The position numbers and the translations under genes are program-made. DNA of 64,000 nt, from NCBI RefSeq assembly GCF_000407365.1, contig NZ_ASVU01000001.1:62001-126000 (forward strand), in the 5' to 3' direction. Below the pieces are notes generated by a model, which was not told where the DNA came from, did no database searches, and saw nothing but the letters and a program-made list of their open reading frames with translations. Source of the DNA: Enterococcus asini ATCC 700915. GTDB lineage: Bacteria > Bacillota > Bacilli > Lactobacillales > Enterococcaceae. Below, piece by piece: positions 12,647-52,522 of this stretch (its first letter is position 1; the number at the start of each line of letters is the position of its first letter).

Positions 12647-13769
12647 GATAGCGTAAAATATTTTGTGTAAATAGAAATTTAGGGTAGAAAAAGAGAAAGT
12701 CCATTCTGTAAAATTAAAGTTACGACACCGAAATTTTATAGGAGGACTTTCTCATGACTAATTTTACTACAGAAATTATGCAAACACTACTCAATAAAGG
12801 CGATTTAGATGAATTATTTCGGGATCATTTAGAACGAGCGATTAATTCACTTCTACAAGCAGAGCTAACTGCTTTTTTAGACTACGAAAAATATGATCGA
12901 AATGGATTCAATTCAGGAAATTCCCGTAACGGGAATTATTCACGTACATTTAAAACAGAATATGGAGAGCTAAATTTAACTATTCCTAGAGATCGGAATG
13001 GCGAATTTTCTCAACAAACACTCCCAGCATATAAGAGAACCAATGATTCGTTAGAAACGACCGTTATCCAATTATTTCAAAAAGGCATTACGATGGCTGA
13101 AATTTCCGAATTAATTGAAAAAATGTATGGGCATCACTATACGCCACAAACGATCTCCAACATGAGTAAACTCGTGTCTGAAGACGTTTTAGCATTTAAA
13201 GAAAGAACGTTAGAAGCCAGTTATTCCGTTATCTTTATGGATGCGACACATATTCCTTTGAAGAGACAAACCGTTTCAAAAGAAGCCGTGTACATTACGA
13301 TTGGTATCCGATTGGATGGAACCAAAGAAGTTCTTGGGTTCACTATCGCCCCAACGGAATCCGCGTATATTTGGAAAGAGGTTCTTCAAGATCTTAAAAA
13401 CCGTGGGTTAGAAGAGGTTTTATTAGTGGTAACCGATGGTTTAAGTGGTATCGAAGAAAGTATCCATAGTGTGTATCCGAATGCACAATTTCAACAATGC
13501 TGTGTACATGTATCTAGAAATATCGCACATAAAGTGCGTATTCGAGATCGAAAAGAAATTTGTGAGGAGTTCAAAGCGGTTTACCAAGCAACGTCTAAAG
13601 AAGAGGCATTGGCTCAAGTGGACTTTATGGTCAAAAAATGGGGAAAGCAGTATCCAAGAGTTGTCAATCTGCTCTTGAATCCTGCCATAGTCACATTTTA
13701 TAATTTTCCTCCCACTATCAGACGAACCATCTATTCAACGAACTTAATCGAAGGATTTAATAAACAATT

Positions 13770-13774
13770 AAAAC
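13770..13774. repeat. Target-site duplication AAAAC, left copy (right copy 15451-15455)
   Basis: AAAAC occurs directly outside both ends of the 13775-15450 element. Deleting the element plus one copy restores the IS256 transposase frame, which proves the insertion point. Confidence 0.95.
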
Positions 13775-15450
13775 CCTGAATAATTCATAGCTCTAAATTT
13801 AAGCTATTTTTTTGAACAAAGTGCCTATATTTAAATTAGGCAGATACATTCTCCCAAAATAATGTGTTTTCGAACAGGATATATACGGAAGAAGGCTATA
13901 ATAAAAATTATTTGTCTATTTAAGGGCAGACTGACCCCTTGGAAAAATAGGTTAAAAATTTTTACGATAACTAGCCTAAATCCATTGCCTAGATCGCCGT
14001 AGGCGTTCAAAAACCTTATAAAATTCAGTTTGATACACATGATAACTCGACAGTTTGAGATAGACTTGTCTACCTGTTTTAACGAGTTTTCCGGCAACTT
14101 TAAGCAATGTCAATCGTATAGAATGAATCGTCATCCCCCGATTCACTTGTTCAAATCCAATGGTCTTTAAAAAATTGACGAGGTTGTAAGCCAGGACACT
14201 GATCATCATTCTGACATGATTTTCCAGGAAACGCGGACTATCTGTTTTGTCAAAATAAAAGCCTGATTTCGCTTCTTTGATGAAATTTTCCATTGTTCCA
14301 CGCTTGCCGTAAAGAGAGAATATGACTTCAGGCGAGACATTATCGGATAGATTCGTCACAATGAATGCGTGGTGAAAAAGAAGCTCTCCTGCTTCACGGA
14401 TTGATCGAATACAAACGCGACGGGGTTTTGACCAGGATTGTGCTTGATAAGGGAGTGAAAAATACTGTATTTCTCGGTCTTCCCATTTTTTATTATCCCC
14501 ATAAAGAACAGAGTGTTCAGCTAACTGACTTAACCTCCGATTGCTCTTTAATCGGATAACGTACTGGCTTTCAGTTGCTTCACAAGATTCATACACCTCT
14601 GGTGTGGCGAAGCCGCTGTCACCCCGAACCAATATCTCGGTATGAGGTAACGTGCTCTTGTAGTGGTGTAACAGCGGGTCGATAAAGGCTTTTACCCCTT
14701 TAGACGTGTACTGATTGCCTGAACGCAGTTCAGCTTTTAGGAAATCTCCGGTCAATCCGTCAAATGCAACTAATGGGTGATAGCCGTAGGTTTGATAATG
14801 GGCATTATAATCTGTTTGTTCTTGGCGTCCAAAGGTATCCGAATGTGTGGAATCGACATCAATGATTAACTCGGTGTCATTGCGAATCAAACGCGCTTTA
14901 TCAATCAGCGACTGATTTAATGCTTGGAGTTGATCCATGTTCTCCTCGGTGAAACGATCTAAAAACCGTGAGATTGACGATTGTGAGGCCAACTCTTTTT
15001 TACCGAGTACAGCTTGAAAGACTGGATCCTGTCTTAATAGATTAGCTGATGAGTCTGCCGAGTACCCAGCAATTAACTGCATAATGAGTTGTTCTAATAT
15101 CGCTAAGTTATCATGTGTGAAGTAAACACGTTTGTCTTTAATATGGAGCCACTGTTTAGCTACGTGTGAAAAGTCGAAGGTATTCATCACCTCTTGAACT
15201 AAGACCAAACCCGAATCACTCGATAAGCGACCACCTGTATGTGAAATAGTCAAATTTGAATTGAATTTTACCTGGTTTTTGTGTAAGCTAGTCATGAGAA
15301 GAACTCCTTTCTTATGGTTGGTTTCGACACCTTTACCATATCAGAATGGGGTTCTTTTTGCATCACTTAACAGGTGAAAATGAAAAAGAAAATGAAGACT
15401 GCCGTTAGGCAGTTTCAGACGGTTTGAAGTCAAAGTATGAATTATTCAGG
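13775..15450 (-). mobile_element. Intact IS1380-family insertion sequence (1676 bp)
   Basis: The ends are 15-bp perfect inverted repeats CCTGAATAATTCATA (13775-13789) and its complement (15436-15450), flanked by the 5-bp direct repeat AAAAC. Its single gene (13976-15295, minus) is full length. Position 13790-13975 is non-coding left-end sequence. The element lies inside, and opposite in orientation to, the IS256 transposase gene, so it arrived later. Confidence 0.95.
13976..15295 (-). CDS. IS1380-family transposase
   Basis: The 439-residue DDE transposase has the normal family length. ELIIDVDSTHSDTFG holds the first catalytic Asp, ILVRGDSGFATPE the second, and GTMENFIKEAKSGFYFDKT the catalytic Glu with the Y-(2)-R/K-like surroundings of the IS4/IS1380 clan. 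The N-terminal SNLTISHTGGRLSSDSGL is also typical. Start ATG at 15293-15295 follows a GAAAGGAG site. No frameshift or internal stop is present, so it may be active. Confidence 0.95.
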   Translation of the reverse strand: MTSLHKNQVKFNSNLTISHTGGRLSSDSGLVLVQEVMNTFDFSHVAKQWLHIKDKRVYFTHDNLAILEQLIMQLIAGYSADSSANLLRQDPVFQAVLGKKELASQSSISRFLDRFTEENMDQLQALNQSLIDKARLIRNDTELIIDVDSTHSDTFGRQEQTDYNAHYQTYGYHPLVAFDGLTGDFLKAELRSGNQYTSKGVKAFIDPLLHHYKSTLPHTEILVRGDSGFATPEVYESCEATESQYVIRLKSNRRLSQLAEHSVLYGDNKKWEDREIQYFSLPYQAQSWSKPRRVCIRSIREAGELLFHHAFIVTNLSDNVSPEVIFSLYGKRGTMENFIKEAKSGFYFDKTDSPRFLENHVRMMISVLAYNLVNFLKTIGFEQVNRGMTIHSIRLTLLKVAGKLVKTGRQVYLKLSSYHVYQTEFYKVFERLRRSRQWI

Positions 15451-15650
15451 AAAACGGTATACTCGAAGAAAAGAACAATTTCCAAATGAAGACTCTTTAG
15501 AAAGATTTTTAGTGTCGCAATTTAATCAATATAACCAAAAATTTTTAGGCAGGATTCACAAAGGATTTAAAGAAATTCAGGATACATTAGAGTCAATGAT
15601 TTAACTGTAATTAACGGAATGGATTTTCCATTTACACATAATTCTTGACG

Positions 15651-15920
15651 CTACCAATTATAGAGATAATACTCCATTTTTTGTCGTTTATTATCATCAA
15701 TATACTCTTTGTTGAACTTAAATGTCATCACTAATTGACCATCTTCATCTGAATAAGTTTTACCTACTGCAGAAAACGGTCTTAAATCTTTTGTTTCTTC
15801 AATTGTTAGCTCTCTTTTCAACTCTTTTTGTTTCTGAACATAGGTGTAAACTCCCCAACTAGAAATTAGAATGGCTCCTATTATTCCTATACCAATCTTT
15901 GCACGTTTACTTAGTCCCAC
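15651..15920 (-). pseudogene. Small N-terminally anchored membrane protein, 3' end cut by IS256
   Basis: Eighty-nine codons remain. A basic N-terminus and one hydrophobic helix (residues 8-26, AKIGIGIIGAILISSWGVYT) are followed by a soluble, charged region (ELTIEETKDLRPFSAVGKTY...). The last codons TGG TAG are formed by IS256 terminal bases, so the natural C-terminus is lost. I do not recognise the family. The pattern (one helix, YSDEDGQL-type domain) resembles small putative membrane-anchored exported proteins. It probably belonged to the accessory island. Confidence 0.65.
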
Positions 15921-15954
15921 AAAATCAATCCTTTCTCACTCTCATTCGATGCAA

Positions 15955-16078
15955 AAAATCAACGTTTTTTCTGCACAAAAATAAGACCACTGAATCAACT
16001 TCTGAAATGTTGATACAATCGTCTTTTTTATGTAAATTATTTTTTTAATTTGGTATCGGTAAAAAACGTTGATTTATT
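15955..16078. repeat. Nested inverted repeats between the serine recombinase and the truncated membrane gene
   Basis: Arms AAATCAACGTTTTTTC (about 15957-15972) and TAAAAAACGTTGATTT (about 16061-16076) are near-perfect complements about 90 bp apart. Between them is a second dyad ATCAAC-N9-GTTGAT. Such layered dyads can be recombinase or repressor sites; function unknown. Confidence 0.55.
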
Positions 16079-16139
16079 GCCGGTTAATTACCAACTTATA
16101 CTACTAAATTCTATCGTTTGTCCATTGAAATGACAAGTC

Positions 16140-16709
16140 TCATTTTCTGGACAAGCCTGCTTTTTTAGCAATGTTATAAACAGTTTTTTCGGATACTCCA
16201 CATTTTACTGCAATTTCTTTCAAAGATAGCTGATTTTCTTGATACAAAACAATAATTCTTTTGCGTTTATTTTTCTTAATCGGTGGTCTACCCAACTGTT
16301 TATCCGAGTTAGCTAACGCCTCTTTTGTTCGTAAACTAATACTTTCTGCTTCAAATTCTGCTATACCTGCTAAAACAGTGAAGAATAGTCGTCCGCTCGC
16401 TGTTCTGGTATCAATGGATTCTTGAATACTTTTCAGATATATCTCTTTCTCATTCAGTTCAGACATAAGATTTACCAATTGCCTAGATGACCTGCTTAAC
16501 CGAGCTAAATTATAAATTAGTAAGGTATCTCCTTTTTCTAAACGTTTCAATGCTTTGTCAAGTTCTGTTCGATGTTCCTTTCTTCCACTAATCTGCTCAG
16601 AAAATAATTCATCGAGTTCAAACTTTTCCAATGCCTTTCTCTGCACTTCCAGTCCTAAGTCCTGCGTATTTTTGCTAGTGCGAATATAGCCAATCGTTTT
16701 ATTTTTCAT
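16140..16709 (-). CDS. Serine recombinase (resolvase/invertase family)
   Basis: The 189-residue protein has the N-terminal catalytic domain GYIRTSKNTQDLGLE with the nucleophilic Ser at residue 12. LIYNLARLSRSSRQLV (around 65-80) and the core helix LAGIAEFEAESISLRTKEAL follow. A C-terminal helix-turn-helix (LSLKEIAVKCGVSEKTVYNIAKKA) is present. The length matches Tn3-type resolvases and Hin-type invertases. No partner transposase of Tn3 type is present, so it is more likely a plasmid or island resolvase/invertase. A 10-bp word CGTTTGTCCA occurs on both sides (16115 and 16874), but too short to call a res site. Confidence 0.9.
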   Translation of the reverse strand: MKNKTIGYIRTSKNTQDLGLEVQRKALEKFELDELFSEQISGRKEHRTELDKALKRLEKGDTLLIYNLARLSRSSRQLVNLMSELNEKEIYLKSIQESIDTRTASGRLFFTVLAGIAEFEAESISLRTKEALANSDKQLGRPPIKKNKRKRIIVLYQENQLSLKEIAVKCGVSEKTVYNIAKKAGLSRK

Positions 16710-17052
16710 TCGAGGTTTCCTCCTTTCTTTTCCTTAGTTTAATAATTTCTTTTTAAATACAAAAATACCCTGACTAGTGGGAAATAGACAGGGTAAATGA
16801 AAAAACATTTAAAACCATAGAGGCGATTCAAATGGTTCTCGTCAAGGTAACTTAATTATCACATAAAAAATAACGTTTGTCCAGCAGATTAATCCTTACT
16901 TTACTTTTCTATTATTTCCCAATTTTCTTAATAAGAATAGTCTATATGAACCTATATATCAACATTTATAGTGTATTAAAAAATTTATATCAACTCCATT
17001 ATATGCTATAATAACATATGTATTAAAAAACAAAAAAAGGAGGTCGTTTTTC
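16710..17052. other. AT-rich intergenic region between the recombinase and the LRR gene
   Basis: No coding sequence seen. It holds a hairpin TACCCTG...CAGGGTA (about 16768-16796), the CGTTTGTCCA word at 16874, and near its right end a good promoter for the LRR gene. Confidence 0.5.
16984..17012 (+). promoter_or_regulatory. Promoter of the LRR surface-protein gene
   Basis: TTTATA (16984-16989), a 17-base spacer and a perfect TATAAT (17007-17012) lie 40 bases before the ATG, followed by AAAGGAGG. Confidence 0.6.
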
Positions 17053-17454
17053 ATGACAGATGGAGCTTCACAAGGACTTTTTGTAATCGTAGCGGTGGTA
17101 ATTTTTGGTATTTTTGTATTGATTAGTTATATATTATTTAAAGATACGTTGAAACCTACATTATCAGGAATTTTTACTGACAGTTTAGAGCAATCTCAAG
17201 ATAATTTAATTGGAAATATCACTGAAGAAAATCCTACTGAATCTGTTTACTTTAAAACACTCACTTATGGTAATGAAACCTTTATATATGATTATACTGG
17301 CGAAGAAACTGAGATAACAATTCCAAAAGAAATAGATGGTAAAAAAATAACCTACATTTCTAGCACAACATTCTCGGATACTAAAGTGATGTTAGGATGA
17401 TTTCATGGACACGATTTGGTAGAATCTAACTACTAAGAAAAGGACGTGTCCACG

Positions 17455-17718
17455 ATGGCAAAAGCCAAGAAAAAATTTGATGAAGACTTTAAGAAGATGA
17501 TCTTAGATTTAAACCAGTCTGGCCAATCGGTCGAGGAACTGGCAGCGCAATATGGTATCGCTACACAAACGATTTATCGTTGGAAGAAGCTTTATACAAA
17601 GAATGAAGCAACCGGCATGACTAAGGCAGAAATCCTAGCAATGAAAAAGGAAATGGCCCGCATGCAGGAGGAAAACACTATCCTAAAAAAGGCTTTAACC
17701 ATATTCGCTCAAAAGTAA
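17455..17718 (+). CDS. IS3-family transposase OrfA (helix-turn-helix subunit)
   Basis: The 87-residue protein has the IS3 OrfA HTH (FDEDFKKMILDLNQSGQSVE, then LAAQYGIATQTIYRWKKLY) and a C-terminal leucine-zipper-like helix (MKKEMARMQEENTILKKAL). Start taken at ATG 17455; a GTG at 17446 is an alternative. The heptamer A AAA AAG at 17685-17691 is in the correct phase for a -1 programmed frameshift into orfB, whose frame is open upstream of its own ATG. A fused OrfAB transposase is therefore expected. Confidence 0.92.
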   Translation: MAKAKKKFDEDFKKMILDLNQSGQSVEELAAQYGIATQTIYRWKKLYTKNEATGMTKAEILAMKKEMARMQEENTILKKALTIFAQK

Positions 17719-17720
17719 AA

Positions 17721-18596
17721 ATGAGTGATGTCTTCGAATTTATTCAATCAAATGTTCATGATCATGACGTAAAACAAATGTGTACCGTTTTGGAAGCACC
17801 GAAATCCAGCTACTATGACTGGAAGAAAAAGAAGCCTTCCAAGCGCCAATCAGAAAACAAACGCTTAAACCGCTTGATTTCAGGAATCTACTTTGAAAAC
17901 AAGGGTATCTATGGTGCGCCCAAAATTCATAAGATTCTTGTTGGCCGTGGCGAGACCTTGTCCCTAAAGAAAGTACAAATACTGATGAGAAAATTAGGCT
18001 TGCGTTCAATCACCCTCAAGAAGTACAAGCCTGGCAAACAAGCAAAAGTTAAAAGTGAAGGACGTAAAAACCTGTTAAACCAAGATTTTACCACTACGTC
18101 GATCAATCAAAAATGGGTGACAGACATTACCTATATTCATACCCTAAAAGATGGCTGGACCTATCTTTCCACCATCCAAGATCTTCACACAAAGAAAATC
18201 ATCGGTTGGAAGTTTGGCAAGCAGATGACGAAAGAACTGGTTATCGAAACCCTTGACCATGCGCTCTTAAACCACACGCCCTCCGAGAACTTGATCATCC
18301 ACTCAGACTTGGGTTCTCAGTACACTAGCGAAGCCTATGAGGCAAAGTTGAAAGAATTGAACATTCGGCACTCCTTTAGTCGTAAAGGCTGTCCGTATGA
18401 CAATGCCGGTATCGAATCGTTTCACGCCTCACTCAAAAAAGAAGAAGTCTATCCATCAAAAGCGTATGAAAACTTTGAAGCTGCTCATTTAGCGTTATTT
18501 CAATACATTGAAGGATTTTACAATCGCAAGCGAATCCATAGTAGTATTAATTATTTAACACCAAATCAGATGGAAGAGTTGGCATTGCAAGCTTAG
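17721..18596 (+). CDS. IS3-family transposase OrfB (DDE integrase)
   Basis: The 291-residue protein has an N-terminal HTH_21-like segment (RLISGIYFENKGIYGAPKIH) and an rve integrase core. WVTDITYIHT carries the first Asp, IIHSDLGSQYTS the second, and GCPYDNAGIESFHASLKKEEV the Glu. FYNRKRIHSSINYLTPNQME ends the protein as in the IS3/IS150 groups. It is intact and in the -1 frame relative to orfA. Confidence 0.95.
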   Translation: MSDVFEFIQSNVHDHDVKQMCTVLEAPKSSYYDWKKKKPSKRQSENKRLNRLISGIYFENKGIYGAPKIHKILVGRGETLSLKKVQILMRKLGLRSITLKKYKPGKQAKVKSEGRKNLLNQDFTTTSINQKWVTDITYIHTLKDGWTYLSTIQDLHTKKIIGWKFGKQMTKELVIETLDHALLNHTPSENLIIHSDLGSQYTSEAYEAKLKELNIRHSFSRKGCPYDNAGIESFHASLKKEEVYPSKAYENFEAAHLALFQYIEGFYNRKRIHSSINYLTPNQMEELALQA

Positions 18597-18624
18597 TTCC
18601 TAGCTACCACCTACATTTTTTTTG

Positions 18625-18728
18625 CGAGATTTCCACAGGGCTTCAACTTCATCGCTTCGATCAGCGGTCAAACGGTTTTGGTTTGACGGCTGGTCGAAAC
18701 GATGAGATACTAACCCGCTGGAATCTCG
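18625..18728. repeat. Large imperfect palindrome at the right end of the IS3 element
   Basis: The core stem pairs CATCGCTTCGATCAGC...GTCAAAC with GTTTGAC...GCTGGTCGAAACGATG (18650-18704, loop GGTTTTG). Outer arms CGAGATTTCCA / GGAATCTCG extend it to about 104 bases. It lies between orfB and the terminal repeat and probably acts as a terminator or end structure. Confidence 0.75.
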
Positions 18729-19272
18729 AAAAAATTCTCACAAATCGTGTCCGAGGTATTGACTCAAATCCAAAAGTTACAAAAGTAAATTTTGAAAAAG
18801 GATTTGATGGTTCTCAAATATTTAAAAGCAATTTCTTAGAAGGTTCAAAAATAAAGGAATTATATTTACCTGATGGTGCTACAGTATTGGATAATCTTTT
18901 TGGTCTGAATGCTACGAATTTAGAAAAAGTAACGTTACCAAATACTTTAAAAGAGATAAAAGACTCTGTATTTACTAATACTAAAATTACTGAGGTATAC
19001 ATTCCTGAAGGTGTAACTTTTTTAGGCTATAATGCTTTTACCAATAAGAATTTAGTTCAAACATTTTATCTACCAAACACCTTGTCTAGATATGATGCAA
19101 CTACAACAAACCATAACATGGAGAATACTTTTGTAATTGGTCAATATACAGAAATCTCAACTAAATATGGAGAAGGTCTTTATATCGAACAATTCGGAAA
19201 TAATTTTAAAATTATTCGTCAGTAAGCGAAATGCTTAATCTAAATTTAACTATGTTCATTCAGTAAAATATT

Positions 19273-19304
19273 AATCCTTAACAAATTTTGTTAAGGATTT
19301 TTTT
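19273..19304 (+). terminator. Intrinsic terminator after the LRR gene
   Basis: AATCCTTAACA-AATT-TTGTTAAGGATT is followed by TTTTTATC, 47 bases past the stop. Confidence 0.88.
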
Positions 19305-19387
19305 ATCACACACTTTTTTTATAGTTAAATATATTTACACACAACGTTCAAATTTCCATCCCCTACTTTTAGATGATAAAATAGTAA

Positions 19388-19780
19388 ATGGATAGTTATG
19401 AAAAGGGATAGTTACGAGATGGATACTTTTTAAATCAGGGATACTTTACTAAATTATGAACCCCTTCATAATCCTTACATTTATTAATTTTCATACCCTA
19501 CCTAAACCCTCCATCAACCCTAAAAAAGAGGTTTTTCCAAAAAAATAGATGACAACAAAATGAGAACTTTTGTGATAACTTTTTGAAAACTATGCCAATT
19601 TTGATGTGAATTCGGAGAAATTACAATGGAAACCTCCGTGAATTTTCAAAAACAGCTGCCCATGAAGAATTTTAAAAAATTTCTATGTGAATCACACCTC
19701 TTACAGATGGATAGAAATGAGAATGGATAGTTATGAGTGTAGGGTTACTAATGGATAGTTTCGAGAATAGATACTTTTAA
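19388..19780 (+). repeat. Iteron-like array, 8 copies of RTGGATASTTWTGAG-type repeats
   Basis: Copies start at 19388, 19405, 19419, 19438, 19707, 19723, 19751 and 19767. Each is a variant of ATGGATAGTTATGAG or ATGGATACTTTTAA. They form two groups of four in direct orientation, with 14-28 base spacing within a group. The array occupies the otherwise gene-free 19226-19815 stretch, which is very AT-rich. Four related copies lie at 21350-21459 on the far side of the next two genes. The layout resembles plasmid replication iterons or a multi-site operator. Confidence 0.8.
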
Positions 19781-19815
19781 AAAATTAACAGATAAAAATA
19801 TAGGAGGGAGTGTAT

Positions 19816-20730
19816 ATGACCACACTTTTTGTCAACAAACGAGCAATTGACTCTGAGGAATTAGTAGACATCATTACCCAATCAAACGGAATATATGAGA
19901 ACACCTTGATTAAGCTCTTGCAATGCAATCGCATCAGCTTAGAAGCACGATTAAAGACCTTAAAAAAGAATAAAATCATTTCTAAAGGAAAATTAAATAA
20001 ACATTTTTATTATGTTGATAAATATGACTTGAAACATATGAAGGATTTAGACTTGCAGTCAATGGTCGTTCAATATTTGGTTTCAATTGGCTTGTATACC
20101 AATAAAATTCAAGTAATTGATTCCCTAGATAAAAATAAACAGCTCTATCTTTCAGTATTTGCTTCAGGTAAATATAACTATAAAAATGATAAATCTATAA
20201 AAAAACTTGCAAATAACCGGTTCAATCAATTATCTTCTGAAGAAGATAGAAAGTATTTTAGTCAATTTATCATCAACGAATTGACTAAATTCCCAATTAG
20301 AGTAGCTTCTTTTTCAGATATGCTAGAAAAACGCTACTATACAACTTCTATAGATACTGTAGATATATTAGCTATTCCTAATAAAGAGTATATCCCTGCC
20401 ATACAATCCAACTTAGCAGATGTCTCATTTAGAAACTTGGAAAATAATACCACACTTATTCGGGATGATATTTTGATTTATCTGAATGATTCTAATACCC
20501 TTGGTTATTTTGTGAAGGAAAATAATCAATATACATTACGAGCAATTTATTCTGTAGTTGACTTCTTTTATTATTTAACCCTGAACAAGAATTCTAAAGA
20601 TTCCATTTATCTCTCTAATGACAAAGCAGATTATGATAATGCAGATGTCTTGTATTTTCAGAGTTATTTGAATAAGGAAAAGTATAATACTATTCAATTA
20701 AAACGAGTCAAGCAAAAAGCACAATCTTAA
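19816..20730 (+). CDS. Winged-helix DNA-binding-like protein of unknown function
   Basis: The 304-residue protein has an N-terminal region that looks like a winged helix: EELVDIITQSNGIYENTLIK, RISLEARLKTLKKNKIISKG, then KHFYYVDKYDLK as the wing. The rest is a mixed alpha/beta region with no motif I recognise; it has no membrane segment or signal peptide. Start at ATG 19816 is 8 bases after AGGAGG. Eight iteron-like repeats lie directly upstream and a shared terminator lies downstream. Candidates are a plasmid-type replication initiator, a repressor that binds the repeats, or an AbiEi-like regulator. I cannot choose, and no family is claimed. Confidence 0.6.
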   Translation: MTTLFVNKRAIDSEELVDIITQSNGIYENTLIKLLQCNRISLEARLKTLKKNKIISKGKLNKHFYYVDKYDLKHMKDLDLQSMVVQYLVSIGLYTNKIQVIDSLDKNKQLYLSVFASGKYNYKNDKSIKKLANNRFNQLSSEEDRKYFSQFIINELTKFPIRVASFSDMLEKRYYTTSIDTVDILAIPNKEYIPAIQSNLADVSFRNLENNTTLIRDDILIYLNDSNTLGYFVKENNQYTLRAIYSVVDFFYYLTLNKNSKDSIYLSNDKADYDNADVLYFQSYLNKEKYNTIQLKRVKQKAQS

Positions 20731-20745
20731 ATGATTGTGCTTTTA
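20713..20745. terminator. Bidirectional terminator between the winged-helix gene and the mini recombinase
   Basis: AAAAGCACAATC-TTAAAT-GATTGTGCTTTT is a perfect 12-bp stem between convergent genes; the stop of the plus-strand gene lies in the loop. Confidence 0.88.
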
Positions 20746-20746
20746 C

Positions 20747-21322
20747 TTACTTAAACGGGTCAAAATCTTCAAGTTTAGCTTTTATATCTTCTTCTTCAAT
20801 TCCTGCGTATCGCAAAGTTACTGCTTGGCTACTATGATTTAAAATCTTCATCAGGGTAACAATATCACCCTTATTCTGTTTTAGAAAGAAATAAGAGAAT
20901 GTTTTTCTAAGTGTATGTGTGCCAATATAATCTAACCCTAGATTATCTGCAACTTTCTGTAGGATTTTATAATACTGATGACTGGCTAACTGTCTACTAC
21001 TATCTGTTGGACTTGGAAATAGCCACTCAGATTCCGCACTATGTTCTGTATTTAAATAATCAATAATGTTTGATGTTAATGATTTCAGATGAAGAGTTCT
21101 TTTTTTACCAGTCTTTATTTCAACAATTTCTGTCTGTATCTTATTTTTCACATCAGATACCTTTAAGTTCAGAATATCTGAAATCCGTAACCCTGTCTTT
21201 ATTCCAATTGCCATAATCAAAAAATCTCTTTTTCCGTGTTTGCCCTTTTGTAATTCTTCTCCAAATTGAATTAGCGTTTCTTTATTTTTTATCGGTTTGA
21301 CATTAATCTTTTTTTGTCCCAT
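20747..21322 (-). CDS. Short tyrosine recombinase (catalytic domain only)
   Basis: The 191-residue protein lacks the N-terminal SAM-like arm of full integrases but has the complete catalytic set. Arg is in IGIKTGLRISDILNL, Lys in IKTGKKRTLHL, His-x-x-Arg in GTHTLRKTFSYF, His in LNHSSQAVTLRYAG with Tyr as the nucleophile. Such short recombinases occur on Gram-positive plasmids and phages, often as dimer resolvases. The start follows AGGTAATTT-type sequence and is preceded by four copies of the repeat also found upstream of the winged-helix gene. Confidence 0.88.
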   Translation of the reverse strand: MGQKKINVKPIKNKETLIQFGEELQKGKHGKRDFLIMAIGIKTGLRISDILNLKVSDVKNKIQTEIVEIKTGKKRTLHLKSLTSNIIDYLNTEHSAESEWLFPSPTDSSRQLASHQYYKILQKVADNLGLDYIGTHTLRKTFSYFFLKQNKGDIVTLMKILNHSSQAVTLRYAGIEEEDIKAKLEDFDPFK

Positions 21323-21340
21323 AAATTACCTCCCAAATAT

Positions 21341-21460
21341 GCACTATTTATGGATACTTATAGTGCATTTCAATATAAAAGTATCCATTTCCTTATAAAT
21401 CAAAAATAAAACATTGATAGAATAGGATTCATGATGGATACTAATTATAAAAGTATCCCT
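21341..21460. repeat. Iteron-like repeats and dyads upstream of the short recombinase (4 copies)
   Basis: ATGGATACTTATA (21350), inverted AAAAGTATCCAT (21377-21388), ATGGATACTAATT (21434) and inverted AAAAGTATCCC (21449-21459). The first copy sits in a GCACTAT...ATAGTGC dyad (21341-21365). The last two form an inverted pair. They match the repeat family at 19388-19780, linking the two genes into one regulated module. Confidence 0.78.
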
Positions 21461-21539
21461 GCTAGGGTCCTTTATAGCATCATAAACAGGAGGTTGCAAA
21501 TTTGTAGAACACACAATCACAAGTGATTAAATATATGAA

Positions 21540-21576
21540 AATCAAAAGGAGAACACTATTTAAGCATGTTCTCCTG
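21540..21576 (-). terminator. Terminator after the full-length tyrosine recombinase
   Basis: Minus strand AGGAGAACA-TGCTTAAATAG-TGTTCTCCT is followed by TTTGATTTT, 16 bases after the stop at 21592. Confidence 0.8.
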
Positions 21577-21591
21577 AATTTGACTACTAAT

Positions 21592-22527
21592 TTAAAGTAT
21601 ACTACCCAAAGGACTTGTCTTTACCGCTTTATCTACTAATTGTTCATCCGTGATACTACTGATATAAATTTTCGTTGTATCTAGTTTGGAATGCCCCAAC
21701 ATCTTACTTATTGTAAAAATATCTTGACCCATCTGCAAATTTTTTACCGTCCAATAATGCCTTAGCGTATGGGGACTGCATCTAACAGTTGCCCTAACGC
21801 CTGCCCTCTTACCTGTTTCTTTCAATATCAATTCAATATTAGTCACCGTTTTAATTTTTCTTCCTGTTTTCCCTAAAATTAGCTGTTCATCTAATTTCCT
21901 TGTTTTGCCATGATAATTTCTAAGTGTATAAAAATGTTTATCTCGAATTCTTCTATATCGAGTAATAAAATAATTCAATTCAGATGAAATTGGAACTACT
22001 CGCCATTTATTGCCCTTTCCTAATATTCGGATATAGTTTTCAGCTAAATCTGTATCCTTTAAATTTAATAGTTCAGATACACGGATACCTGTGTCTGCTA
22101 AAAGAGCAATAATACACTTATTTCTTGCTCCTAAATAGGTATCAAATTTCCACACATTTAGCATATCCTTTACTTCTTTATCATTGAATGTAGTTAATAA
22201 CGGCTTTGTTTCCTTTAATAACCTTATCGTTTCCAGAGGACTAACTTTGACTACTTTCTCAGCTACTAAATAGTTCCAGAAAGCTTTGTGAGTTTTTAAA
22301 ATTGCATTTATATAACTACTTTTTAATTGGCAATCCAATAAAAAACTGATGAACAACTTATAATGAATTTTTGAAACATCTTCAATTAAAATCGGTGAAC
22401 TAATTTCTTTTCTGTAATAGTCTATAAATTTTCGATGATGTTGTTCATAAGACTCAATCGTTCTTTTTGAATAATTTTCCAATTTCAATTCTAACAAGTA
22501 TTCCTTTACTAATCGTTCATAGTGCAT
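21592..22527 (-). CDS. Tyrosine recombinase/integrase
   Basis: The 311-residue protein has an N-terminal core-binding domain (YSKRTIESYEQHHRKFIDYY, then INAILKTHKAFWNYL). The catalytic domain has Arg in LLADTGIRVSELLNL, Lys in LGKGNKWRVVPIS, His-x-x-Arg in SPHTLRHYWT, and LGHSKLDTTKIY with the Tyr nucleophile. It is likely the integrase that placed the island beside eno. Its ATG (22525-22527) directly follows the T-run of a terminator hairpin. The only Shine-Dalgarno-like bases (GAGAGGGG) are inside that hairpin, so expression is expected to be very low unless the structure is opened. Confidence 0.9.
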   Translation of the reverse strand: MHYERLVKEYLLELKLENYSKRTIESYEQHHRKFIDYYRKEISSPILIEDVSKIHYKLFISFLLDCQLKSSYINAILKTHKAFWNYLVAEKVVKVSPLETIRLLKETKPLLTTFNDKEVKDMLNVWKFDTYLGARNKCIIALLADTGIRVSELLNLKDTDLAENYIRILGKGNKWRVVPISSELNYFITRYRRIRDKHFYTLRNYHGKTRKLDEQLILGKTGRKIKTVTNIELILKETGKRAGVRATVRCSPHTLRHYWTVKNLQMGQDIFTISKMLGHSKLDTTKIYISSITDEQLVDKAVKTSPLGSIL

Positions 22528-22571
22528 AAAAAAATGCCCCTCTCATGTCATTAGTTGACATAAGAAAGGCA
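22528..22571 (-). terminator. Terminator hairpin between eno and the integrase start codon
   Basis: Minus strand GTGCCTTTCTTATGTCA-ACTAA-TGACATGAGAGGGGCA pairs over about 16 positions (several G-U) and is followed by seven Ts that touch the integrase ATG. It is the only terminator found downstream of eno, so it probably ends the glycolytic transcript and insulates the integrase. Confidence 0.85.
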
Positions 22572-22666
22572 CTTAGCAATAATACTAGAACATAAAAGTA
22601 GAAACACTTTTTATACTAATTTTATCATGTCTGAAAAATTGGTATAGTTACTTTTTTATTCGCAGA

Positions 22667-24070
<1,404 letters not shown>

Positions 24071-30143: not shown

Positions 30144-31256
30144 TCAGTAGCCGATTTCCTTTGAACCACTCAAGCGTTCGTAAAACATCCGCCGCTGTCC
30201 AAACAACAGCAGAAGTCCATTGATGAGTACCAATCCGAGAAAGACCCCACAGCCCCCTAGGACCATCAGATAAAATTCCACGTGCTTGCCTTCCTCATTT
30301 TGCATCTGCCGCAAAACAGCCGGCAATAAAAAGTCCCACACTCCAAATGTGACACCAAACAATAAGAACTGGCGCCATAGCAAAGCAAGAAAGCCTAAGC
30401 GCTCTCCCTTACGATTCACCAGACGAATCTTCACCAAGTGTTTGCCAATGGTCCCCCCGTGCCAAATAAAGGGCACCAATACAAAGTAGAGGAAAACACC
30501 GATTAAGTAGATGCCATAGTGCTCCCGGCTAAGGTCAGGGGCAAAGTACGCCACCGCTTGAAAAGCCAGAGAAAACAGCGTAAGATCCACCAATAAAGCA
30601 ATCAAACGCCGCCAAAAACCGGCCTTATCCCGCTCACTACCGGCAGCGGTATTCAGCTCGTCTATAGACGGCAACAATCGCGCAAACACCGGCTCCAAGG
30701 CATAGCCCAATACCCCACCCGTAGTATTTAAAATCAAATCGTCCACATCAAACAAACGATAGGAACGAGGATAAATGAAATACAAACCGGTTAATTGAGT
30801 TAATTCAAAAAATAAGGACAGAGCAAAGCTGGCCAGAATCACTTTTTTTAGTGACACTTTCCAAATATAGCGCAAGTAAAAACCAAACGGCAAGGTCAGC
30901 ATTAAATTGAAAAAAGGTTGCAAAAAGACGCCTTGCTTCAAAGCTGGCAAATACGTGCCGAATTCCCACGGTCGCCAGACAGTTCCCGAAAGAAAGTCCC
31001 GCAATGCGGTAAAAGGCACTAGGTTGTATCGAATAGTCGTAAGCTTGGCCACCTGATCTGGATCCGGCAAAGGCAAAATCACTAAGAAATAGGCACACAA
31101 TAAATAAAAGCTAAAACTAAATAAAATCACTACTTTTCGTTTGGAAATCGAGCCGAATTTTCGGTATTGCCAAACCCCATAAGGAACCACCGCCAACGCA
31201 GCCAAAAAAGGAAACAGCAATAGCGCCGTTAAAATTGGTGTCGTATACGCACTCAT
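30144..31256 (-). CDS. VanZ-RDD fusion membrane protein
   Basis: The 370-residue polytopic protein has an N-terminal VanZ-like domain: RYNLVPFTALRDFL, PFGFYLRYIWKVSLKK, FFELTQLTG, RLFDVDDLILNTTGGVLGY. A C-terminal RDD domain (AGFWRRLIALLVDLTLF, then WHGGTIGKHLVKIRLV) follows. VanZ relatives are linked to low-level teicoplanin and lipoglycopeptide tolerance and envelope functions; RDD domains may be transporters. The fusion is common in enterococci. No vancomycin-resistance genes are nearby. Confidence 0.88.
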   Translation of the reverse strand: MSAYTTPILTALLLFPFLAALAVVPYGVWQYRKFGSISKRKVVILFSFSFYLLCAYFLVILPLPDPDQVAKLTTIRYNLVPFTALRDFLSGTVWRPWEFGTYLPALKQGVFLQPFFNLMLTLPFGFYLRYIWKVSLKKVILASFALSLFFELTQLTGLYFIYPRSYRLFDVDDLILNTTGGVLGYALEPVFARLLPSIDELNTAAGSERDKAGFWRRLIALLVDLTLFSLAFQAVAYFAPDLSREHYGIYLIGVFLYFVLVPFIWHGGTIGKHLVKIRLVNRKGERLGFLALLWRQFLLFGVTFGVWDFLLPAVLRQMQNEEGKHVEFYLMVLGGCGVFLGLVLINGLLLLFGQRRMFYERLSGSKEIGY

Positions 31257-31382
31257 TTTTTCATCCCCTCCATTACTTATCCACTGGCTGCTTTTAGAAG
31301 TAGCACAGCAAAACTCATTCTAGCGAGAATCCCCTAAGAAGGCAACTCAGCCACCCTACTGCCACTGTCACACTATTACAGA

Positions 31383-33103: not shown

Positions 33104-33919
33104 ATGAAATCGATCCACATACTGAATCAACCACTTTACCAAACTCAGGAATTTTTTACGCCCTTTGCTTTAACAGACGTCTTAATCGAAGACTCTGGGC
33201 AACAGGAGCAACCTTACCTGCACTTTTGGCAATTGTCCCAAGGGATGATTTTAGGCATGAAAGATACCCGACTGCCTCAGCTACAAGCTGCTTTGGCCAC
33301 CTTGCCAGCTACCGGCTACACCCCCGTAGTCCGCAATTCCGGTGGTCTGGGCGTCGTGGCGGATGCGGGAATTTTAAACGTCTCTCTCATTTTGCCTTTG
33401 ACGAATCAGAAGCTATCCACGGATGAAGCCTACGAAAAAATGTATCATTTGATTCAACAAGCCTTTCCTGAAGTGACGATTACTACAGGGGAAGTAGCGA
33501 CTTCTTATTGTCCTGGAGAGTTCGACTTAAGCATTGAAGGACAAAAAATCGCCGGGATCGCCCAACGCCGGATTAAAAATGGTGTGGTGATTATGCTGTA
33601 CTTAAGCGTCAATGGAGATCAACCAGGCCGAGGCGTTTTGGTTCGTAATTTTTATCAAGCGGGTTTAAAAGAAGCTTTTGGAACCCAAGGCTATCCCCCA
33701 GTGGACCCGACTAGCATGGCGAATCTAGCCGACTTTCTGCCGGGGATGACCCCAAAAGAAGTCATCAAACGCCTAAGTGCTGTCTTCCCCAAAGCCAAAC
33801 ACCTGGACTCACGGGATTGGCTGAATCAACTAGCAGACACCAGTCGCTACGAAAGTCGTCTGGCCAGCATGGCGCAACGCAATCAAATCATAAAGGAGCA
33901 AAAAAATGATTCCTTATAG
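33104..33919 (+). CDS. lipL: Octanoyl-[GcvH]:protein N-octanoyltransferase (LipL-like)
   Basis: The 271-residue BPL/LplA/LipB-fold protein moves an octanoyl or lipoyl group between carrier proteins. RNSGGLGVVADAGILNVSL is the conserved RRxxGG-type loop. SYCPGEFDLSIEGQKIAGIAQRR contains the Cys nucleophile characteristic of LipL/LipM amidotransferases rather than ATP-dependent ligases. A TATAAT at 33064-33069 and a GGAG site precede it. It overlaps the next gene by 14 bases. Confidence 0.82.
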   Translation: MKSIHILNQPLYQTQEFFTPFALTDVLIEDSGQQEQPYLHFWQLSQGMILGMKDTRLPQLQAALATLPATGYTPVVRNSGGLGVVADAGILNVSLILPLTNQKLSTDEAYEKMYHLIQQAFPEVTITTGEVATSYCPGEFDLSIEGQKIAGIAQRRIKNGVVIMLYLSVNGDQPGRGVLVRNFYQAGLKEAFGTQGYPPVDPTSMANLADFLPGMTPKEVIKRLSAVFPKAKHLDSRDWLNQLADTSRYESRLASMAQRNQIIKEQKNDSL

Positions 33920-51619: not shown

Positions 51620-52522
51620 CTACACGCGTTCTTGACGTTGATTCCATTTGAATTGGATCACCGTAATTGATAAAACAATGACAAAGAGTACCATCGCAAT
51701 TGCGGAGGCATAGCCAAAGTTAAATTTCACAAACGCTTCGTTATAGATTTGGTAAACCAATACGTTGGTAGCCCGACCTGGACCACCGGCGGTCATTACT
51801 TGCACCAAGTCAAAGATTTTGAAACAGTTAATGACTAGCATGATCGTGACAAAGAATGTTGTTGGGCGCAAAGATGGTACGGTAACGTTTAGGAATTGTT
51901 TCCATTTACCAGCTCCGTCCATGGATGCTGCTTCGTACAATTCTTTTGGCACACTTTGCAAACCTGCCAAATACAAAATCATGTAGTAACCCATGCCCCG
52001 CCATACGCTGACGATGACAATGGCGGTCAAAGCCCAATCGGAACTAGAAGTCCAGCCTGGTGGGTTTTCGATGAAAAGTTTCAAGAATTGGTTAATCGGA
52101 CCCATGGTTGGGTGGAATAACATGTTCCAAACTACGGCGATTGCTACTAAAGACGTAACATAAGGGAAGAAAAAGGCAGTCCGGAAGAACTTCATGCCCC
52201 GAATCTTCTTATTGAGTAAAATGGCTAAACCTAAAGAACAGATCAAAGTCAATGGTACCACGCCAATGGTATAAAGGAACGTATTCTTCAATGAAATCCA
52301 GAAGGTATCATCGTTTAACATTTTTGAGAAGTTTTTCAAGCCCACAAATTCTGGTGTTCCAAAAGAATCCCATTTCATAAAGGCTAAGATTAGTGAGAAG
52401 ATAACGGGAATCAACGTAAATAAGAAGAACCCGATGAAGTTTGGTGCGATAAATGAGAGTGCTGTTAAGGTGTTTTTGCGGCGTAGTTTATGAGCCGCTT
52501 TGCTTTTTCCAGTAATTTCCAT
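51620..52522 (-). CDS. ABC sugar permease, MalF/LplB type
   Basis: The 300-residue protein has the CUT1 permease fold: six helices, FIAPNFIGFFLFTLIPVIFSL as the first, and the EAA loop LQSVPKELYEAASMDGAGKW around residues 188-207. PGRATNVLVYQIYNEAF is also family-typical. It lies downstream of the binding-protein gene, separated by a terminator-like hairpin. Confidence 0.92.
   Translation of the reverse strand: MEITGKSKAAHKLRRKNTLTALSFIAPNFIGFFLFTLIPVIFSLILAFMKWDSFGTPEFVGLKNFSKMLNDDTFWISLKNTFLYTIGVVPLTLICSLGLAILLNKKIRGMKFFRTAFFFPYVTSLVAIAVVWNMLFHPTMGPINQFLKLFIENPPGWTSSSDWALTAIVIVSVWRGMGYYMILYLAGLQSVPKELYEAASMDGAGKWKQFLNVTVPSLRPTTFFVTIMLVINCFKIFDLVQVMTAGGPGRATNVLVYQIYNEAFVKFNFGYASAIAMVLFVIVLSITVIQFKWNQRQERV

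Follow-up and report, generated by a model that had tools for sequence, protein, structure and literature searches.

A repeat-bracketed two-gene module of Enterococcaceae integrative islands and its possible role in their control and maintenance

What might be the function of a locus in which about a dozen short repeats bracket only two genes, one encoding an orphan protein and the other a small tyrosine recombinase? This question is raised by positions 19388–21460 of a 64-kb stretch of the Enterococcus asini genome (the whole stretch is referred to as the window), where a preliminary description had proposed either a plasmid-like replicon or a regulated mobile unit. Our analysis points, with confidence about evenly balanced, to a conserved control-and-maintenance module of integrative islands in Enterococcaceae and at least one related family, the working of which is proposed below. 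No description of the module or of its orphan gene was found in the literature searched, a search that left most subscription journals outside its reach. Throughout, c0 is the orphan protein, c1 the small tyrosine recombinase, c2 a serine recombinase, c3 a leucine-rich repeat (LRR) protein, c4 a primase-like gene, c6 a small helix-turn-helix-like gene, and c7 the XerC-like integrase of the window island. G-numbers denote compared genomes or loci, G000 being the window's own genome and G046a and G046b two islands of G046. The readings weighed here overlap and are not mutually exclusive, and the confidences given to them do not sum to one. The module and its borders contain the following features (aa, amino acids).

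19353..19382, plus strand: candidate c0 promoter, TTTCCA-18-TAAAAT with TG before the second hexamer
19388..19450, plus strand: distal cluster of four direct GGATAS copies
19462..19525, plus strand: phased CCCTACAT-like array, units at 19462, 19473, 19496, 19507 and 19518, spacing 11-23-11-11
19562..19593, plus strand: phased GATAACTTT-like units at 19562, 19574 and 19585, spacing 12-11
19625..19637, plus strand: conserved box AATGGAAACCTCC in the c0 leader, from the leader alignment
19706..19783, plus strand: proximal GGATAS cluster, before the c0 ribosome-binding site
19816..20730, plus strand: c0, 304-aa orphan protein, convergent with c1
20747..21322, minus strand: c1, 191-aa tyrosine recombinase without an N-terminal domain
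21351..21387: inverted pair R1 of the c1 leader, wide spacing
21435..21459: inverted pair R2, GGATACT..AAGTATCC, narrow spacing, proposed crossover site
21496..21511, plus strand: GCAAATTTGTAGAACA, right border of the conserved core

The repeats of the module are real and beyond chance. A scan for the pattern KGGATASWW gave 17 matches in the window (shuffles of the whole window: mean 6.1, largest 13), 11 of which fall within 19389–21459. When 19380–21470 was considered alone, these 11 matches stood against 2000 dinucleotide shuffles that averaged 0.34 and never exceeded 4. Matches before c0 start at 19389, 19405, 19420, 19438, 19708, 19724 and 19752, all on the plus strand, and are joined by a copy one base off at about 19768; those before c1 are at 21351 (plus), 21387 (minus), 21435 (plus) and 21459 (minus). 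The preliminary count of about 12 copies, eight before c0 and four (some inverted) before c1, therefore corresponds to eleven exact copies and one near-match, and the two genes are convergent as it had stated. An Rfam scan of window positions 15600–22700 gave zero matches.

To what extent is the module shared by other genomes? Relatives of c0, fragments included, were detected in 19 of 105 genomes of the window's family, which is taken to be Enterococcaceae from named relatives such as Enterococcus italicus, E. casseliflavus and Enterococcus sp. CU12B. A sample of 398 genomes from the class contained two with c0, and these belong to the same genus as the window. Outside the family, c0 is also present in two genomes from another family of the order, G560 and G636, which were found via the primase-like gene. 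The close c1 subfamily (E at most 1e-50) occurs at 15 places in 13 of the 105 genomes, each of them no more than about 3 kb away from c0. Both genes look to be under purifying selection: in six pairwise comparisons the ratio of nonsynonymous to synonymous substitution rates (dN/dS) was 0.07–0.26 for c0 and 0.06–0.26 for c1, the c1 pair with G005 resting on two changes. In the four more distant pairs c0 changed faster (0.16–0.26 vs 0.06–0.07), which might be expected if c0 follows changes in the DNA sites that it targets.

Homologous loci keep the repeats as well, and GGATA-type sites could be counted in 17 c0 leaders and 18 c1 leaders. For these counts the c0 leader of G493, which is interrupted by an insertion sequence (IS), and the short remnants in G004, G007 and G029 were left out, G034 and G482 (loci without close c1) were kept apart, and for G494 a start further upstream served as the leader's anchor, the listed c0 frame beginning later; the same anchor was used in the leader alignment and the array counts. 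Among 96 sites before c0, 94 are oriented as c0 and 46 have a GAG suffix. The 70 sites before c1 are split evenly between strands (35 plus, 35 minus), none has GAG, and 64 are of the type GGATAC; in 17 of the 18 leaders there are exactly four, forming one wide and one narrow inverted pair (G636 has two). As background, the mostly coding intervals from c0 start to c1 start, with G031, G057 and intervals of at least 3.5 kb left out, contain 9 such sites in 24,774 bp. Thus, what had been described as a single repeat type is two site classes separated by GAG suffix and orientation: direct sites before c0 and inverted pairs before c1.

The inverted pairs raise the possibility that c1 acts on its own leader. 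As the preliminary description had it, c1 is a catalytic-domain-only tyrosine recombinase: its sole Pfam match is Phage_integrase at residues 17–174 (E = 4.5e-24), and it matches phrog_216 (E = 1.6e-45). What we take to be the catalytic R, K, H-x-x-R, H and Y residues are visible by eye. A catalytic domain that appears intact from these residues, combined with two inverted pairs beside c1 at 17 of 18 loci, is what a resolution system would be predicted to have. The TnpI-irs (Tn4430, Tn5401) and TnpS/TnpT-rst systems likewise combine a tyrosine recombinase with a nearby inverted-pair site. According to the part of the source consulted (PMC7157771), irs consists of IR1-IR2 plus DR1-DR2, rst of two inverted pairs, the analysed sites include promoters, and Tn5401 has extra copies of the TnpI binding site near its ends. 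Compared with these systems, c1 is a protein of 191 aa lacking the N-terminal domain, and its recombination role is a prediction. A c1-like recombinase is also encoded by the circular phage-plasmid pWBG758, which fits dimer resolution. On the basis of this relative and the inverted pairs, it is reasonable to regard c1 as a candidate dimer resolvase. By eye, no GGATAS cluster lies upstream of the c1 relatives on pWBG758 and on an E. faecium plasmid; for a Geobacillus relative the upstream part of the stretch is too short to judge. DNA inversion by c1 was also considered and is not supported, c0 and c1 being convergent at 17 of 18 loci with both genes. At the exception, G560, two IS copies of opposite orientation enclose c0 and c3, which reads as an IS-linked rearrangement.

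Could all GGATAS copies be binding sites of c1, in the manner of TnpI, with c0 as a passenger or a reader of the CCCTACAT array only? We consider this unlikely. It would agree with the absence of GGATAS clusters at the two c0 loci without close c1, of which G034 holds one degenerate GGGATAAAA and G482 zero GGATAS sites; both have, by eye, other short tandem motifs at the array position. The combination of inverted and direct subsites in irs, and modulation of expression by TnpI, offer a precedent in the part of PMC7157771 consulted. On the other hand, GAG-suffixed direct sites are confined to c0 leaders (46/96 vs 0/70). Moreover, the c0 of G034 is only 28% identical, so its target could have changed, and just two loci, apparently of one lineage, are concerned.

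The c0 leader contains more than GGATAS sites. Its -10-like box is kept in most of the 17 aligned leaders. CCCTACAT-like units, counted with up to two mismatches, are spaced by 11, 22 or 23, 11 and 11 bp in 15 of 17 leaders and total 100, compared with a mean of 24.5 and a maximum of 38 in 200 mononucleotide shuffles. GATAACTTT-like units follow at 11–12 bp, with 100 in whole leaders under the same mismatch limit vs 31.8 (maximum 46) in shuffles. Such phased direct units before an orphan gene would fit the leader of a replication initiator, and an elaborate regulatory leader is equally possible. The idea of a plasmid-origin-type iteron array in the preliminary description is partly upheld: GGATAS does not form a plain iteron array, and the adjoining CCCTACAT array is the better iteron candidate.

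Is c0 itself recognizable as an initiator? No significant match to c0 was found in Pfam, NCBIfam, PHROGs, PADLOC or PDB, and HMMER gave no Pfam hit to Rep_3, RepA_N or Replic_Relax at E of at most 1. With the profile-profile comparison described below, this bears out the earlier remark that no known Rep motif is evident. Nor were these three families found in the window's own genome. Direct repeats (GGATAS and CCCTACAT) do lie beside c0, as in iteron plasmids, and the initiator of a Rep_3, RepA_N or Replic_Relax type is missing. The N-terminus of c0 was judged winged-helix-like from its sequence by eye. An AlphaFold model based on five sequences was unusable (predicted local distance difference test, pLDDT, 33.6). 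Two PDB chains (E = 0.16 and 0.26) are at chance level, and weak Frataxin-like Pfam matches (best E = 0.0061; below the cut-off for the window protein) were judged to be chance. Relatives of c0 were absent from viral contigs and phage records, and in plasmids a single matching stretch of 54 residues was detected, on a Lacticaseibacillus plasmid. That c0 founds a new replication-initiator family firing from a leader with a helically phased CCCTACAT array, and that the islands are integrative plasmids which shuttle anti-phage defences from chromosome to circle and back while c1 keeps the circle monomeric through its paired inverted sites, appears to us an unlikely extension.

What kind of element carries the module? 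Comparison of the loci revealed a common order. To the left of c1 are cargo, c4, c6, small genes, c2, c3, c0 and sometimes further cargo; to its right are the conserved border, sometimes cargo, an integrase and a housekeeping gene. c3 was not detected in G046a, G046b, G036 and G057. Beyond the GCAAATTTGTAGAACA border, different islands have differing integrase and cargo modules. A XerC-like integrase is located at eno in the window, G005, G046b and G057; a 387-aa integrase at rpsI in the second copy of the window's own genome, G036 and G051; a related integrase of 388–394 aa at rplT in G046a, G014, G494 and G518; and a 325-aa integrase in G027, G054 and G479 beside what is presumably a metal-sulphur-assembly-like gene. 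Thirteen islands were searched for flanking direct repeats. Eight (G005, G046b, G027, G054, G046a, G036, G014 and G560) have, at a housekeeping-gene 3' end, both an integrase and flanking direct repeats 109 bp or more in length, as integrative islands do. The repeat-to-repeat distance is 5.9 kb in G046b, 17–24 kb in six islands and 33 kb in G027, whose repeat is only 76% identical, with the sequence partly masked. Flanking repeats were not found for the window, its second copy, G482, G034 and G518, the left stretch searched being short in the last three (5 kb for G482 and G034, 2 kb for G518). In G005 (G005:C1:838000-897999) copies of the enolase 3' end were seen at reverse-complement positions 31255–31360, 33393–33518 and 51996–52121; the copy at 31255–31360, which is additional to the two repeats that flank the island and lies about 2.1 kb to the left of them, suggests that a second insertion at eno is present in tandem or once was. 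G034 and G482 represent a sister type of island that has diverged, in which c0-like, c4-like, serine recombinase and LRR genes are present and a close c1 is not; a protein of 787–790 aa is present beside their c0, the 790-aa one lacking a Pfam or PADLOC match.

The gene content of the islands was then compared with known functions. c4 codes for about 620 aa and matches phrog_25531 (function unknown; E = 2.7e-100), with a weak, below-cut-off similarity to the DnaG zinc ribbon (E = 0.0018), no PDB sequence match and an unusable AlphaFold model (three sequences, pLDDT 34.8). LDFD and R-x-FFG motifs are common to eight c4 relatives, and we take them to be primase-like. Relatives of c4 are located on the phage-plasmids pTAB7B and pWBG758 and on the plasmid pDX2B. 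Most islands seen whole carry c4, and several carry anti-phage cargo. The gene was detected in 18 of 295 Lactobacillales genomes, and 8 of the 15 inspected have both c4 and c0 (G005, G027, G051, G031, G014, G034, G560 and G636). Scans against Pfam and PADLOC covered ten proteins each. In G005 they revealed a type III restriction-modification system, with relatives of its genes in G034; in G054 a Gabija pair together with an EcoRI-type methylase and a GmrSD/HNH protein; in G036 a type I restriction subunit; and in G518 a P-type ATPase. Three others had no match. Relaxase or type IV secretion genes were absent from the proteins scanned, a subset of the island genes, and packaging genes from the nine island proteins, likewise a subset, scanned against PHROGs. 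A Tn3 transposase was not noticed in the islands, although no dedicated search was run. The integrases, the flanking repeats in 8 of 13 islands and a primase-like gene with circular phage-plasmid relatives support the proposal of a regulated mobile unit or plasmid-like island, which is largely right.

A reasonable model can be drawn from these observations. The integrase would excise the island as a circle, as the flanking repeats suggest, and the primase-like protein would help the circle to replicate. c1 would resolve dimers or co-integrates, using the two inverted pairs of its own leader in the TnpI-irs/TnpS-rst manner to which the architecture points. c0 would bind its own leader and set its own expression, and would probably fire or license replication from the phased CCCTACAT/GATAACTTT region; the c0-leader step is the weakest of the model. 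The likeliest reading is that c1 is a multimer resolvase working at the inverted pairs, and that c0 acts on its own leader as either an initiator or a regulator.

Several observations weigh against this model. The partners are not strictly coupled: G036 pairs a close c1 (85% identity) with a distant c0 (46%), G034 and G482 hold a c0-like gene without close c1, and c4 was not detected in G036 and the 5.9-kb island G046b, both of which have c0 and c1. In 7 of the 15 genomes inspected, the stretches of roughly 20 kb retrieved with c4 show neither c0 nor c1; there c4 lies in islands (G032, G011, G570, G567 and G541) or in prophages apparent by eye (G568 and G580). Since these seven show no c0, c0 is an addition to c4 and not its fixed partner. 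Similarly, no c0 or c1 was seen beside the c4 relatives on pTAB7B and pDX2B. The leader of the c6/primase operon is itself kept and palindromic (TTGATATATCAA-like) in eight aligned loci, e.g. L017 14761–15221, and could be a second candidate origin or operator, or the origin instead of the c0 leader. Within the 17 c0 leaders there is no recurring DnaA box (one near-match, in 1/17), regular CCCTACAT spacing is missing from G036 and G636, and promoter-like hits (19 vs 15.0 expected, sd 4.5) are hardly above chance. Finally, hhalign of a profile of 19 c0 sequences gave probabilities of 0.1% for Rep_3, 0.9% for RepA_N and 0.1% for Replic_Relax, the target profiles comprising 18, 7 and only 2 sequences, respectively; seven control families from the islands reached at most 0.4%.

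Some of these points would suit a c0 that is only a transcriptional regulator, silencing the island until induction through the GGATAS sites before c0 and c1 and leaving replication to the primase-like protein and its own leader, which we regard as possible but doubtful. The seven genomes with c4 alone and the palindromes of the primase operon leader favor it, as do the related sites before both convergent genes. The distal cluster lies directly downstream of the conserved -10-like box, with promoter-like sequences adjoining it and overlapping R1 and R2; the proximal cluster is free of such overlap. However, a long leader with a phased CCCTACAT array exceeds the needs of an autorepressor, the two leaders differ in their class of sites, and the small G046b island keeps c0 and c1 without c4.

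How much of the island is left in the window? The preliminary description had treated the module as an isolated unit; the unit reaches c2 and a split c3 on the left and an integrase beside enolase on the right.

15651..15920, minus strand: 89-aa remnant, truncated by an IS256-like copy, of a gene that encodes 362 aa in the G054 island
16140..16709, minus strand: serine recombinase c2, Pfam Resolvase (E = 2e-36), relatives in other islands
17053..19222, plus strand: BspA-type LRR gene c3, split by an IS3-like element at 17387–18772
21592..22527, minus strand: XerC-like tyrosine integrase c7, Phage_integrase (E = 3.4e-26)
22665..22790, minus strand: enolase 3' end, proposed right attachment site

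Window positions 15656–17208 are 94.5% identical to the G054 island, and the island sequence stops at 15655, where an element that we take to be IS256-like ends (12647–13774 and 15451–15655, with another IS between; this interrupting IS encodes a 439-aa transposase at 13976–15295). The right piece of c3 matches LRR_5 (E = 1.2e-13), and its relative in G005 is unsplit. The genome contains the IS3-like element in eight identical full copies, this one included, and in one further copy of 97% identity, a sign of recent spread. The enolase 3' segment is repeated at the opposite end of the islands in G046b (90%, 126 bp) and G005 (91%, 126 bp); no left copy was found in the window. A second island copy (G000:C1:669716) is located at rpsI with a different integrase and a c0 of 99% identity. 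Its island sequence begins at the equivalent of window position 19001, adjoining a stretch about 70% similar to part of the IS3-like element, an identical copy of which lies about 0.9 kb further left.

We regard the window copy as a remnant that keeps c0, c1, their sites, c2 and the integrase, its left part having been lost or broken by IS elements. It is somewhat unlikely that the module is a functionless decayed remnant in this genome, a view that is compatible with the other readings for intact islands. The loss of the left part at the IS256-like element, the split LRR gene, the truncation of the second copy beside an IS and the failure to find c4 in the genome all speak for it. c0 and c1 are nevertheless open in both copies, with dN/dS between the copies of 0.07 and 0.13, respectively; the copies may have arrived separately, so that selection may predate the decay.

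With respect to known elements, we consider the type to be a variant of known integrative islands. The nearest in the literature consulted are the McRImecD islands of Macrococcus, which share the rpsI site. In the part of the report available (PMC5341023), they measure 18 and 16 kb, have a 388-aa tyrosine integrase at the rpsI 3' end and no conjugation or packaging genes, and the one that direct repeats flank on both sides is excised in circular form; McRImecD-1 lacks pri, rep, pif and terS. That part of the report makes no mention of a c0/c1 module. Phage-inducible chromosomal islands and other satellites are similar in integrase, primase-like gene, small size and defence cargo, but differ in that the nine proteins scanned include no packaging gene. 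The phage-plasmids pWBG758 and pTAB7B have the primase-like relative on a circular replicon, pWBG758 with the c1-like recombinase as well; in contrast to the islands they have virion genes, and the search for c0 relatives gave none on either of them.

Taken together, one island type of Enterococcaceae couples a recurring core of recombinases, c0 and a patterned leader to exchanged integrases and defence cargo. The sharp GCAAATTTGTAGAACA border offers a concrete place for studying how integration modules are swapped. If c0 is an initiator, a protein without relatives in the libraries searched would join the known ways in which small replicons start replication.

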